A stretch of DNA of 64,000 bases from Antedon bifida. Taxonomy: Eukaryota; Echinodermata; Crinoidea; Comatulida; Antedonidae. Positions 47,829 to 54,295 of the stretch are shown here, one piece after another. The stretch lies in the NCBI GenBank assembly GCA_963402885.1, contig OY727095.1, positions 18,729,001 through 18,793,000 of the forward strand, given 5' to 3'. The translations under genes and the position numbers were made by a program. Each line of letters begins with the position of its first letter. Positions within the stretch are counted from its first letter, which is position 1. A model generated the notes under the pieces. It saw nothing but the letters and a program-made list of their open reading frames with translations, made no database searches and had not been told where the DNA came from.

Positions 47829-47835
47829 ATTATAT

Positions 47836-47869
47836 CATGGAGAAATAAGTTAGGAAGGAGTAACATCGA
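47836..47869 (+). repeat. Left terminal inverted repeat of the P-type element
   Basis: 34 bp, identical in reverse complement to 54255-54288. It opens CATGGAGAAATAAG. Confidence 0.95.
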
Positions 47870-48449
47870 TGTAATGCATGGATTTTAATCCAATTAAGCA
47901 CATTACATGGTCAAATGACTCCTATTAAATTGCACTGCGACCGCCCGCCGCGTTATCTCGGTTCGATCTCCTTACACACAAGGCTCCTCGCCGCTAAGTA
48001 GCAACCCCTATACCCTGTCTAACTAACAGTGGAGTACATAAATACGAACAAAAAACACATTGCATATGCGCAGTTAATTGTCAACAAGGATTCACATGCG
48101 TGTTTTATGTATTCGGATTCCGAATTTTTTTGCGAACGTACCAGTCATTAAATCATTAAAATCAACCAAAAATAACTACTTGTTTCTTCAATTGTAAGTA
48201 TTCCATTATTTTGAATATAACAACGAAACAAACACGTATTTTAATAGTTTCCCTTTGTACTGGAGTTTTAAGTTTTAGTTATATGAATAAAGGAAAGCTG
48301 TAGCTTTCATTTGATGCCTTGCATGACAGTTTCCGATGGTGTCCGGCTGACATACAACGAATTGAAAAGCATCGAATCTGTCCGACCGCCGAACCGAATA
48401 GCCGGAGTTAGTTCCACCGGTCGTAGTTATTTTGGTCCACCGGTCGTTG

Positions 48450-48870
48450 TATTACTTAGGCCTAGCTAGGTCTAGGGCAGTTATTGTTTCGATGTTTAAT
48501 TTAGGCTAGGTCTTAGATTTAAATTTTAAACCAATAAATAATAACTAACATTAGCCATAAAATAATTACTTTCGTAGGCCTACTACTACTACTAGCTAGG
48601 CTAGGACTAAAGTACTCGACTCCTAGCTAGGGTCTAGTCCTACTAGCTAGGCTAGACCTAGGCCTACCTATTGTTCTATGTACTATTTATCATAGAGGTA
48701 ATGTTAATCTACCACCTAGGGTTATGCCAAAAATACCAATACTACTATCTAGGGCCGGCCTAATTAGACTATGTTCAATAACATTAACAATAAAAAAAAG
48801 CAGGTATTTATTTTTAGTTAGCTAGCCTAGATAGTACTACTACTAGGACAACAACTCTAGGTCATCATTC
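48450..48870. other. CTAG/TAGGCCTA-rich patch before the transposase start
   Basis: Dense CTAGCTAGG, TAGGCCTA and ACTACTACTA motifs in the presumed promoter and 5' leader of the transposase. A similar patch lies at 53620-53880, upstream of the coding exons B and C of the second gene. Whether these are binding sites or just genome-typical sequence is unknown. A CTTGTTTTCAG acceptor just before the ATG suggests a noncoding first exon. Confidence 0.45.
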
Positions 48871-48907
48871 GCCATTTAAATTAAATTGCTCTTGTTTTCA
48901 GAGAACG

Positions 48908-51900
48908 ATGACAGGACACAGTGTTTGTTTGAAACCTACTTGTCGACTTTGTGGAATTTCCAGGGCGATTCCTTCAGATCGTTCACCTTATACAAAGGAC
49001 GCGTTCAAGTCTGTAATCAAGTCATGTTTTTGCTTAGATATTGATAATGATGATCCAGAAATCCACCCACCATTTATTTGTTATTCCTGTGTGCAAAAAC
49101 TGAAAAGGTGGAAGAAAGGCCACAGCAAGGACCGCAGTAAAGTGTGCAATATTGTAATTGCAAAATTCAATGATTCTCAATGTGCGTCTTGTATGACTGA
49201 TGGGGAGATTCCTACCAATCTTCACGATTACAGAAAGGAAGCAGAAAAATGTAGCCTTGTCTCTTTGTTTCCACATGAAGATGAATTACTAATAATTAGA
49301 CTTTCACCAACTGGTGATGCTGTCATCAAGTTAACAGTCAACAGTGATTCGACATGGGGAGTTGTCATTGCTGGTGTTGTATTGCAAGCACAGCCTATTC
49401 TAGGAGAAGTCTTTAACAAAAAATTACCATTACATCAGTTCACCAAGCTGTGTGATATATTGAGGAGTGCTAAAATCTGTGCAGGCAATGAAGATTATTT
49501 AGATTTGATAGAGAGACGAAAAGGACCAGAAGGGCAGATTCCTATAAGGATAACACCAAAAGATGTCTATTTATGCAACACCATTAGACATAATGACTGT
49601 GAATTGCTAATTGCTGAGGATCTGAAGCGGTGCGCAGTTTGCCGAATTTATCGTGGGGATTTATCATCAATGCGAAGTGCTTCCTGCAAGGAAAAGTCTT
49701 CACTGACGGTAGCCAACAAGTATTTATCAAATTCTCAACTGCAGAACAAAGCAGCAACATTACAATGTAATTACAGACGGTTGAAAAGAAAGAGTGGTTC
49801 CCTTGAGAATAAAGTTTCCAAGATGTACATGCTAGAAAGCAAATTAATTTCTGAAAATGCAGCTCACTTAATGGAAGACACAATGGAAATGGGAAAACCT
49901 GAAATTGAGAGTTTATTATGTAAATATCCGTCAGCAAAGCTTTTGTGGGAGCAGCAACTGGCATCTATGGGCAAGGGAAAGCAGATGCGTTGGCACCCGG
50001 CAATTTTACGTTGGTGCATTGCTATCCAAAGCAAGTCTCCGTCAGCTTATAATTTAATTCGCGAAAGTGGATTCATGACGCTGCCTCATCCAAACACACT
50101 CCAACCCTACAGCCACTTTGCTGGTGTGACAACTGGTTTTTGCCATGAGATGTTAAGTAGAGTTGTAACAGACCTCAAATTATATGAAGAAGGTAATGAA
50201 TTGCAAAAACATGTTGTGCTATTATTTGATGAAATGAAGATAAAATCAGGATTGGTTTTTTCACAAAGCTCTGGCAAAGTTGTTGGATCAACAGATGTAG
50301 GCAGCTTAGCCAATGAGATGCATTCATTTGAGCGGCGATGTCGAGGTGAAGAAGAAATCCCAGTTGCCTCACATGTTCTGGTGTTGATGATCCGGGGTTT
50401 GTTTTCTAACCTGCATGTTCCAATTGCCTACTATCCAACAACTGGAGCTTCTAGTTGTGATCTGTTCATGGCAATGTGGGAAGCTGTTGAGATGATCGAA
50501 GTAGCTGGGTTTGTAGTTCATGCGATGGTTTCTGATGGTGCCACTCCGAACAGGAAGTTTTACAGACTGCATTCACCATCATCTACCACTTCATCCATTG
50601 TCTTCAAGACATCGCATCAGGGAGACCCAGATCGCAGTGTTTTTTTCTACAGTGATGTGCCGCATCTAATAAAGACGCTTCGAAACAATGTAGAGAACTC
50701 TGGCTACAATAACAAGACACGGAATCTTCATGTAAGTACTGTATGATCATACACCACATTGAAAATACCAATTTCATTATAGCATGTTGAAAATGATATT
50801 TACTTATTTCTAAATCTAAAAATGTTCTTCATTTAAAGTATAACAAACAAGACATCAAGTGGAGTCATTTTCTTGACACCTATGAATGGGATGTGAAATT
50901 GCAGAACACATGTCCAGGGCTGAGGATGCTCCACAAGTTGACGCATGAACACCTCCACCTTACTCCATCATTGAGAATGCGGGTATACTTGGCTGCACAG
51001 GTAATTACTTGCAAGTTTTGTGTTCAGCCCTTGTTCTTTTGCAAACAATTCTGTAATTTAATTTTTCATGAATGTTTTTTATTTTCTTCATATTTTCAGG
51101 TGTTAAGCAATTCGACAGCAAATGCAATGGAGATTATGGATCGACATGACATGACATCCACTATCAAATTTGTTAGAATGGTAGACCAATTTTTTGATTG
51201 CCTTAATGTCTCTAGTTTTTTCCAAGGCAAACGATCCAGAAAACCAGCTATGGAGCCATACAGGACAAAAGATGACTGGCGTTTTAAGGTACATTTTTTT
51301 TAAATAGAAAATTTAAAAAAAATTGAACATGGGACATGATTGGGCTTATTATTGTTTTTGTTCAATTTCAATTAGCATTTGGATATACATTGAGAAATAT
51401 CTATAATTTTTGTATTAATCGAAGGAATAATTGCCACTATTTTTTGTTCTGATGTTTTTAAGTGGTTGCAAGATGACTTCCTGGGTTTCTTTAAAGAATG
51501 GCAAGACGAGGTGAATGCGCTTGAAGATGTAGAGAAGAGTGTAAAAAAGAGGATGTTATTAAGCACCGCAACACTTGATGGACTTGAGATAACAAGCAAG
51601 TACATTTCGTTTTTTTTTTACAGCTGACTTTGTTTAATAATTAATCAAAAGTTCTGACATCACAAGAGTGACAAAGTATATTAAAAATGAATTAATAATA
51701 AGTATATTAATTTTTATTCTTTGCCATCAACAGTTAATTCGTTTGTAGAGTTGACTAAAAAACTACTGGACCTGCCAGGGGTAGAGTGTGTTCTAAGTGC
51801 GAAGTATAATCAAGATCCGTTGGAACAGTACTTCAGTAAACAGAGAGGATGTGGTGGAAGTAACACAAACCCAACATCAATGCAGTTTGGCCACAATATG

Positions 51901-52023
51901 CATGCACTGTATGTAGCTGCGAACTGTTCCAAGGCATCCAGGAGAGGCAACTGCCGCAGCCAAATTGTTGACCAAACTATTGATGACTCACCTCTTCAAA
52001 GGAAGAAGACACCAAATGCATAA
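48908..52023 (+). CDS. P-type transposase with RAG1-like N-terminal zinc module
   Basis: Five exons close into 865 codons: 48908-50731, 50839-51000, 51100-51288, 51463-51595, 51734-52023 (TAA). Intron 4 must use a GC donor (GCAAGT) to keep frame. Residues 12-95 have CxxC (12/15), then IHPPFICYSC (52-61), then CASC (92/95); this is the spacing and IHP signature of the RAG1 N-terminal zinc-binding region. C242/C245 and a basic stretch near 290 follow. The catalytic region is P/THAP9-like: LLFDEMKIKSGLVF (D441), MVSDGATPNRK (D543), then the inserted DVPHLIKTLRN. Next come YEWD..CPGLRML..LTHEHLHLTPSLRM and QVLSNSTANAM, and the terminal NQDPLEQYF (candidate E800) with GCGGSNTNP. There is no THAP domain. 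It likely cuts and joins the element's ends in the nucleus. Confidence 0.9.
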
Positions 52024-52117
52024 ATGATATTTATGATCAGCAAACTTTTTCAAACCAAACGGTTCTTTTCAGAACCAACCAAAATACAATTGAGATTTAA
52101 TTTAGCTATTGTCGTTA

Positions 52118-52123
52118 TTTATT
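52118..52123 (-). terminator. Polyadenylation signal of the second transposon gene
   Basis: AATAAA on the minus strand, 26 bp past the stop at 52150, within the 126-bp gap between the two convergent genes. Confidence 0.5.
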
Positions 52124-52149
52124 TCATCACACACACAAAATAGTATATA

Positions 52150-54009
52150 TTACAACAATTCTTTTCTGAGAGATTTTTCACCCTTTTTTGAAACTTTGCC
52201 GCTTTCCTTCTTTAAATTCAAGTATACCTTGAGGAATGCATTAGCTCTGATTTTCAACCAGTATCTAACTACAATTTGTAATAATTGAGCAGAAGCATTG
52301 TCACCTAGTGTATCTCTGGTTATTCTGCACCAGAAAGTTTGAACATTCTCCTTATTGATAATACGGTCATACAAATCAGCCAGATAGTTACTATTTAACA
52401 TCGTATTAAGTTTATTTGTAGCTAAATGCTGCCTTGTTTCTATTTCAACGCTTCTAAAAAACAGATATACATCATCATCAACAACAAACAAACCTGATCT
52501 ATTTTGTTTGTCGATCCATTCTTTGGAATAGTCGTAGAAGGAATGGGTTACGTTGGTACTACACACTTGCCACTTAGTGAGCACATCACAGTAGGCTCTG
52601 GCAGTACTACTTTTACCCTTTCGAAATCTTTTCACAAGCGCATAAGGCACATAACCGGCAACGTACCGAATTATCTTTTCTGTGTGAACATCCAACTGTG
52701 GGATGTCAGTTACCGTTTCCTCATGTGGCAAATCTATTTTATGCTTATCATTTAGAATTAACCTTAACATTGTACGTTGCAAAAATAGGTTCAGTGTTTT
52801 TACATGCTGCCCATCAGAGTTGACATTTAGCTCCTTTAACAGGGTGACCCACCTTCCCAAACTTGTACACATGTGTTGGTGAAATGCCCGGCACATCATC
52901 TCATCAGCTTCTGGTTTCATTTTCTTTGTGTTTCCTGATGTTATTACCTTCCAAAGTAATTTTGTACTGTCTTCCCAAAATGTTTTTATAATGACTGTAT
53001 TTGAGTGCTTCTGCAGATCATTTGCCAATTTTTTCACTTGACGAGCTATTGGATACAAGTCATTGCTGTATACTGGATCGTTCGCTAACATGGTAAAAGC
53101 AGCATCAACGTATTCATTAACCCTGCTGACAGCTTCATCTTCACTAAACTTATTGGAGGGTCGGTTGATGCCTGAAAATACAGAAAAGAAAGATTATTGA
53201 GCATACAACAGTTTTAATAAATGATGAGAATGCATTTAATATAGTAAAGATGAAATGTTCAAAATAAAATGTTATCATTCGTTCAAAATCCTTACTCTTT
53301 TTCCTTGATTGGTTTTTGGCTGGGTTTGTTGACACTTCCTTCTTCTGATGGGTTGCGGTAATAGTAGTTGGATGTAGGCCTACACTAACATCCATACCTA
53401 AATAGCATAATAAAATTGAAAATTAACTCATGTTGTCCTATAAGAATGAAAAATAATAATTTATCTAAAAAATACAGACTAATACTAATACTAATGGTTT
53501 GAGGTCTTGACAAGGTCATAGATGAGTTGGTTGCATCAGATGATAATCGTGCCTTCATAATTAATATAATAATATGAATGATGCATTATTGATGATTGTG
53601 CAATAAAATTAATGATATATTAGGCCTAGGCCTCCTATAGGGGGAAATCCATGGATGGATAGATTATAGGGCCTAGCCTAGCTAGACCTATCAATAAATC
53701 GGGCGGCTAATTTTTGGCGTACAGAAAGAAAAACTACAAAAATACTACCTAGCCTAGAGAGGACGAACGAATTCAGAATTATCGTTGTTACAATCAACCC
53801 GGTCGTGTAGACAGCCTAGAGTGGGCCGGGGCAGACGAGGCCTCTTTAAAAGAGAAGAGGTTCAGGTAACTAGGCCTAGCTACTAAACTTAAATGCAATG
53901 CCTAGTTTTAACCTAGCATACCATTTTCCAGGTCTTCATGTTCGCTGGCAAACTTCAATTCCTCGAGAATTCCGGGTTCCAATTCGTCCTCCAATTCATA
54001 AAAATCCAT
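52150..54009 (-). CDS. Unknown 403-aa accessory protein of the transposon
   Basis: Three minus-strand exons close into 403 codons: 54009-53922, 53397-53296, 53171-52150 (TAA), with GT-AG introns and matching phases (1, 1). I do not recognise the family. Visible features: a strongly acidic N-terminus (MDFYELEDELEPGILEEL), a lysine-rich segment after exon 2 (NQSRKKSK), and a long helical core. About two thirds along is a distinctive block, KIIRYVAGYVPYALVKRF. The C-terminus is basic (KKESGKVSKKGEKSLRKELL). No kelch repeats, PHD finger, THAP or DDE motif is seen, so it is not RAG2-like. Its place inside the inverted repeats, tail to tail with the transposase, suggests an accessory or regulatory role. 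That is inference. Confidence 0.85.
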
Positions 54010-54254
54010 AATGATAAATAAAACGCGTAAACAAAATGTATCGAGTGTGGTATAATTATTCTTCTGCTGTGTGTATGGTCGCCGCGTGTGTAGATCAGCA
54101 TCAACAACGAGTCTCGCTTGATGACGCGTCACATGAAAGCAATGGATATGCGCATGCTCAAATCTAACAAGCGACAGATCAACGGCAATTAAATGTTACG
54201 TAACAGTCAGATAATCCAATTAGCGGCGGGGTGGCCTATTCGTTTGATGTATTC

Positions 54255-54288
54255 TCGATGTTACTCCTTCCTAACTTATTTCTCCATG
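54255..54288 (-). repeat. Right terminal inverted repeat of the P-type element
   Basis: Exact reverse complement of 47836-47869; followed by the second ATTATAT at 54289-54295. Confidence 0.95.
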
Positions 54289-54295
54289 ATTATAT

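Follow-up and report, generated by a model that had tools for sequence, protein, structure and literature searches.

The P transposase of Drosophila melanogaster (DmTNP) makes its 5'-strand cut 17 bp into the 31-bp terminal inverted repeats (TIRs) of its element, and the target repeat is 8 bp (PMC7776569). The P elements of Anopheles have been reported to carry THAP domains and to be flanked by 8-bp repeats (PMC1562414). Zebrafish Pdre2/THAP9 is described as a P-type transposase with a THAP domain, a helix-turn-helix (HTH), a split RNase H, a GTP-binding domain (GBD) and a C-terminal domain (CTD) in cis, acting with 13-bp TIRs and 8-bp repeats (PMC10983969). Galileo of Drosophila, whose transposase also belongs to the P superfamily, has a THAP domain (PMC4168063), long TIRs (PMC4168063, PMC3688188) and, in most copies, a 7-bp target repeat with the consensus GTANTAC or GTATTAC (PMC4168063). 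RAG-like transposons (RAG1L-RAG2L) carry, between their TIRs, a convergent pair of genes arranged tail to tail (PMC7204232). Here, we describe a 6,453-bp element in a 64,000-nucleotide stretch of the genome of the crinoid Antedon bifida (the window, at its full length). It is probably a cut-and-paste transposon of the P superfamily that is intact and has moved recently, and that belongs to a lineage making its transposase as two chains encoded by convergent genes, A on the plus strand and B on the minus strand.

Membership in the P superfamily is indicated by an RNase H core, a GTP-binding insertion, an Asp/Asp/Glu triad, 34-bp TIRs, a 7-bp repeat and a 17-base cut, the last read indirectly from scars. 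The RNase H core, the GTP-binding insertion and the aligned catalytic motifs are shared with the D. melanogaster P element (6p5a), as are a similar TIR length, the 17-base 5'-strand offset and a helical CTD. Unlike that element, the Antedon element has no detected THAP domain, a 7-bp rather than 8-bp repeat, and two genes, with the putative CTD on the separate convergent gene. It thus lacks the THAP domain, the 8-bp repeat and the single chain with a CTD in cis of a canonical THAP P element. Galileo shares the 7-bp repeat but differs in its THAP domain and long TIRs, and no second gene is mentioned in the parts of the Galileo descriptions that were covered. Pdre2/THAP9 shares the P-type transposase architecture and differs in its THAP domain, its cis CTD, its 13-bp TIRs and its 8-bp repeats. 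The two-gene layout recalls RAG-like transposons, which differ in their catalytic core, 5-bp repeats and kelch-type RAG2L partner; here A has a P-type core, Pfam detects no kelch in B, and the repeat is 7 bp. No two-gene P element or crinoid P element was recognised in a literature search that covered titles and the starts of abstracts, with subscription papers mostly outside it. What appears to be new, as judged from sequence, is a P transposase split over two facing genes; the P superfamily and 7-bp repeats (Galileo) were known.

Structure, copies and recent movement

The element spans window positions 47836-54288 (C8:18776836-18783288 in an assembly of 315.6 Mb and 27 contigs) and comprises the following features, in which the splice sites of both genes were inferred from sequence alone.

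47829..47835, no strand: left 7-bp target-site duplication, ATTATAT
47836..47869, plus: left 34-bp TIR, exact reverse complement of the right TIR
47836-47852: first 17 bases of the left TIR, predicted excision remnant (cut position inferred from scars)
48908..50731, plus: gene A exon 1
48938-49114, plus: zf-AD-like zinc region in exon 1
50132-50566, plus: N-terminal part of RNase H in exon 1
50228-50230 and 50534-50536, plus: catalytic Asp codons in exon 1
50839..51000, plus: gene A exon 2, GTP-binding insertion domain continued
51100..51288, plus: gene A exon 3
51463..51595, plus: gene A exon 4
51596-51733, plus: gene A intron 4, predicted GC-AG, donor GCAAGT at 51596
51734..52023, plus: gene A exon 5, short tail, catalytic Glu at 51823-51825
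52150..53171, minus: gene B exon 3
52201-52701, minus: part of gene B exon 3 with a structure model that matches the Drosophila P transposase CTD
53296..53397, minus: gene B exon 2
53922..54009, minus: gene B exon 1, with start codon
54255..54288, minus: right 34-bp TIR, outer 17 bases at 54272-54288
54289..54295, no strand: right 7-bp target-site duplication, ATTATAT

An earlier note on this DNA had described an intact P-superfamily element with two convergent genes, perfect TIRs, flanking ATTATAT repeats and splice phases that close. Each part of this description held, and domains, TIRs and open frames agree: the 34-bp ends are perfect inverted repeats, ATTATAT stands at both flanks with the eighth base mismatched, and both genes are open. 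Gene A has five exons (865 aa, with intron 4 taken as GC-AG) and gene B three (403 aa), and the genes lie tail to tail with their stop codons 126 bp apart. A GT donor four bases further into intron 4 was rejected because it breaks the A frame, which the GC-AG intron closes. A search for subterminal inverted repeats found no shared 10- or 11-mers and three shared 9-mers, so the 11-bp repeats of the fly element have no clear counterpart here.

A DNA query with the element returned 11 full-length copies at 99-100% identity, all of which were read whole. Every one of them is flanked by matching repeats of only 7 bases that vary from copy to copy, and every one has open A and B frames. Six, the window copy among them, are identical over 6,453 bp; of the others, one has a 6-bp deletion and four differ by 5-8 substitutions plus a small number of short indels. 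The first 23 bases of the TIR mark 35 ends in all, comprising 13 pairs at element length, three further pairs that lie about 3.6, 7.1 and 10.0 kb apart, and three unpaired ends. The 13 TIR pairs, together with the individual 7-bp repeats and open frames of all 11 copies, are more than chance would produce. Two of the 13 pairs stand head to tail on C9:27814044-27826956 (L105-L107) and share one repeat, in the order GTCTGAT-copy-GTCTGAT-copy-GTCTGAT (ends read; A exons matched).

The six identical copies and the C9 tandem might point to an assembly artefact or segmental duplication. We consider this scarcely credible, as the 11 copies lie on several contigs with differing flanks and differing 7-bp repeats. 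The element is recently mobile. The near-identical copies with differing flanking repeats that the earlier note proposed to look for were thus found, with a repeat of 7 bp, and TIR-bounded copies do contain the minus-strand gene (11 of 11). Its suggestion of a still-active element remains a candidate reading: the identical copies attest to very recent movement but not to movement at present.

Excision scars and the predicted cut

Genome-wide, there are 281 + 279 occurrences of the first 14 TIR bases and 17 + 18 of the first 23, with none of the reversed control in either case. Consequently, 525 of the 560 14-base tips stop before base 23. Tip sites were read at 68 loci, equal to 67 sites, all drawn from 100 of the 560 places (two contigs). 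Among 78 ends, in which the 18- and 20-base ends of one scar site fetched twice are counted double, the retained TIR lengths were 14 (5 ends), 15 (7), 16 (10), 17 (37), 18 (10), 19 (1), 20 (6) and 21 (2) bases. The mode was therefore 17 bases and no end exceeded 21. A second tip (CCATG) stood within 60 bp in 39 of the 67 sites, whereas an upstream control gave 5 of 76. The flanking 7-mers agreed within one base in 28 of these 39 two-tip sites (22 exactly) versus 31 of 1,482 swapped pairings. Sites at which no second tip was present are consistent with decay or with larger deletions, and some may be other sequences that share the tip.

Two 12-base tips lie no more than 30 bases apart at 151 places genome-wide (control, 0), and junction forms were taken from 50 of these. 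A 27-bp form (17 + 13 bases, 3 shared) accounted for 15 of the 50, a 32-bp form (17 + 17 bases, 2 shared) for seven, and a 38-bp form (20 + 18 bases, none shared) for four. The longer end retained 17 bases in 29 of the 50. The 27-bp and 32-bp forms are what would be expected if two facing 17-nt 3' overhangs were joined on TTA or TA, and the scars suggest that the cut in the 5' strand lies 17 bases into the TIR. To account for ends that retained 18-21 bases, either templated fill-in or a less frequent second cut must be assumed. The recurrence of the 38-bp form points to templated repair or to another favoured end structure.

These short palindromes could instead be tiny non-autonomous copies that were inserted as such, given that they have both tips and 7-bp repeats like insertions and that certain forms recur (of the 50, 15 are 27 bp long and four are 38 bp long). 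However, the 50 scars comprise 24 distinct junctions, with filler or microhomology and retained lengths of 12-21 bases. Moreover, at 25-48 bp they lack most of the terminal sequence, at least 138 and 216 bp, that fly P ends require in order to move (PMC1562414). Insertion of such tiny copies is accordingly very improbable. There are over ten times as many two-tip places (151) as element-length pairs (13), which, if the former are read as excision scars, indicates that donor sites were often closed without the element being restored.

Sites of the 38-bp scar are C1:1849028, C1:23041404, C7:8736548 and C7:34560307, and the three that were read differ in their 7-bp repeats. Identical scars also lie close together at C9:1823289, 1829846 and 1948832, and at L066/L067 (C1:22063643 and 22071975). 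Such close-set scars were probably duplicated along with their surroundings; the flanks at L066/L067 are identical.

Gene A and the candidate C-terminal domain in gene B

Pfam profiles matched gene A above cut-off for the TNP-like RNaseH_N, GBD and RNaseH_C domains and just below cut-off for the P-type HTH and zf-AD. Alignment of A with DmTNP (6.5e-21) brings the catalytic motifs into line. Up to E 5, Pfam detected no THAP domain in A, and A does not match RAG1_imp_bd. Across 38 A-type chains (E <= 0.01), zf-AD was matched in eight, RAG1_imp_bd in five and THAP in four, and a QDxLE-type motif was present in 59 of the 67 chains examined.

Homologs of A differ in what follows the catalytic Glu. 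The tail is 65 aa in A and 53-86 aa in 48 of 59 measured chains, in many of which it is basic and PLPKRK-like. It reaches 166-274 aa in seven fly/THAP9-like chains (two with a Pfam THAP match), and 409 aa (P0073) and 849 aa (P0048) in sponge-type chains; the two remaining measured chains have 28 and 127 aa. A and most of its measured relatives thus have no room for a CTD in cis. One chain, P0053, has a THAP match yet a tail of 61 aa, such that the absence of a cis CTD is not confined to zf-AD forms.

B looks like the missing CTD. The B model matches the helical fold of the DmTNP CTD in structure comparison. Foldseek with the B model returned nothing at E <= 0.001, and 6p5a_B was not among the 50 matches listed; the match emerged when the Foldseek candidates were realigned. 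P transposase was the top structural row both among 982 and among 714 chains. Pfam on B gave DUF7229 (E 0.0074, below its cut-off) and one weaker match. In sponge-type chains, a B-like part is placed exactly at the position of the CTD, in cis. At the level of sequence, kinship with the fly CTD is at most tentative, with one short profile match to fly/THAP9-like C-termini (P 2.9e-4) and nothing beyond chance in PDB.

The likeness could nevertheless be fortuitous, with B an unrelated accessory gene such as a captured host gene or a DNA-binding helper. B searched as a sequence against PDB gave chance matches only, and its profile gave none up to E 10. Helical folds also match easily, and one chain (P0077) has a B-like part after a C2H2-like motif, as judged by eye. 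Yet the top structural rank of P transposase in both sets and the CTD position of the B-like part in sponge-type chains count against an unrelated helper, which we regard as quite unlikely.

Spread of the two-gene arrangement and its implications

Six further A loci of this genome (L099-L104) were chosen from the matches to A, leaving out about a dozen other A-like places, and are 28-71% identical to A piece by piece. All six have a B homolog downstream on the opposite strand, with the outermost matches about 107-434 bp apart. As L099 and L100 are copies from the same family (96-97% in DNA), the six loci represent five families. Some are partial: L099 holds only the B end, L103 showed only the last A exon, and L104 (C7:18771171-18774330) is a broken element with remains of a convergent B. 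The Antedon mediterranea A homolog P0015 matches L104 at 89-95% in five pieces and 72% in a sixth, which points to closely related feather-star hosts. In Anneissia, LOC117106473 is A-like (67%) and LOC117106474 B-like, and the two are on contigs of equal length (57,310), presumably one and the same. The L100 B is 68% identical to Anneissia P0001 (LOC117114751). By eye, aa 1-35 of P0001 resemble the second half of a PHD finger. This pattern was sought without success in L099, L100, the element and the window, Pfam on P0001 gave nothing at E <= 0.1, and the PHD-like start may be a gene-model artefact.

B might alternatively be a CTD-derived regulator that restrains transposition by a self-sufficient A through competition for DNA or partners. 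Fly P elements produce shortened repressor forms of their transposase, and B, being a gene in its own right with a promoter region, could be expressed independently of A. Against such a regulator, the 53-86 aa past the Glu in A and 48 of 59 measured chains indicate a domain that is missing and not merely duplicated, and B is kept beside A in five families. A purely regulatory B is thus unlikely, albeit a better candidate than an unrelated helper.

Under the two-chain reading, we infer that B binds A and is needed. Gene A would supply the zinc, HTH, RNase H and GTP-binding domains and catalysis, and gene B the helical domain that in the fly enzyme follows a disordered linker in the same chain. 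A and B would assemble on the TIRs and pair them; the outer 3' ends would be nicked and the 5' strands cut 17 bases inside, leaving the donor site with 17-nt 3' overhangs. Insertion would follow with a 7-bp stagger, with A cutting and joining while B provides the CTD surface that binds DNA and target. Host end joining would close the donor, often on 2-3 bases of microhomology, and so produce the scars.

In a tree of 40 hand-chosen chains (midpoint root, some long branches and unresolved forks), the six rows labelled as having a convergent B fall within one 15-row clade (99/97) together with chains from starfish, urchins, sea cucumbers and mussels. Neither the fly/THAP9-like group nor the sponge cis form belongs to this clade. 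Among the labels, P0067 was assigned to the CTD group on the basis of a THAP match, its tail being unmeasured, and P0004 to the convergent group, as its B homolog is on an equally long contig. The simplest reading of these sequences is that the CTD was first in cis and was split off later, before these element lineages parted.

Five A relatives (P0009, P0011, P0013, P0018 and P0020), two from sea-cucumber/urchin and three from amphioxus records, match RAG1_imp_bd, the Pfam model of the RAG1 N-terminal region, above its curated cut-off. The match lies in their N-terminal zinc region (about aa 25-126; profile 135-232 of 284), which makes kinship with the RAG1 N-terminal region possible. That region, whose source is debated, has been traced to the Aplysia element N-RAG-TP (PMC8355894). 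A larger scenario is doubtful, though slightly less so than a regulatory B: an ancient animal P clade, spanning starfish, urchins, sea cucumbers and mussels, would have a two-chain transposase from convergent genes, and the RAG1 zinc region would derive from the N-terminal part of an element of this kind, with a gene layout that would foreshadow the convergent RAG1/RAG2 pair.

The scars make one genome a record of many natural excisions, and they give the cut position and the repair habits of the host without an enzyme assay. A split at the linker between the catalytic body and the CTD, if true, would be a natural two-component form of a well-studied eukaryotic transposase, in which the role of the CTD could be tested by omitting one gene. 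If the split is old, a convergent B is predicted in starfish, urchins, sea cucumbers and mussels, and many uncharacterized or THAP9-like database proteins would be half of a two-part enzyme.
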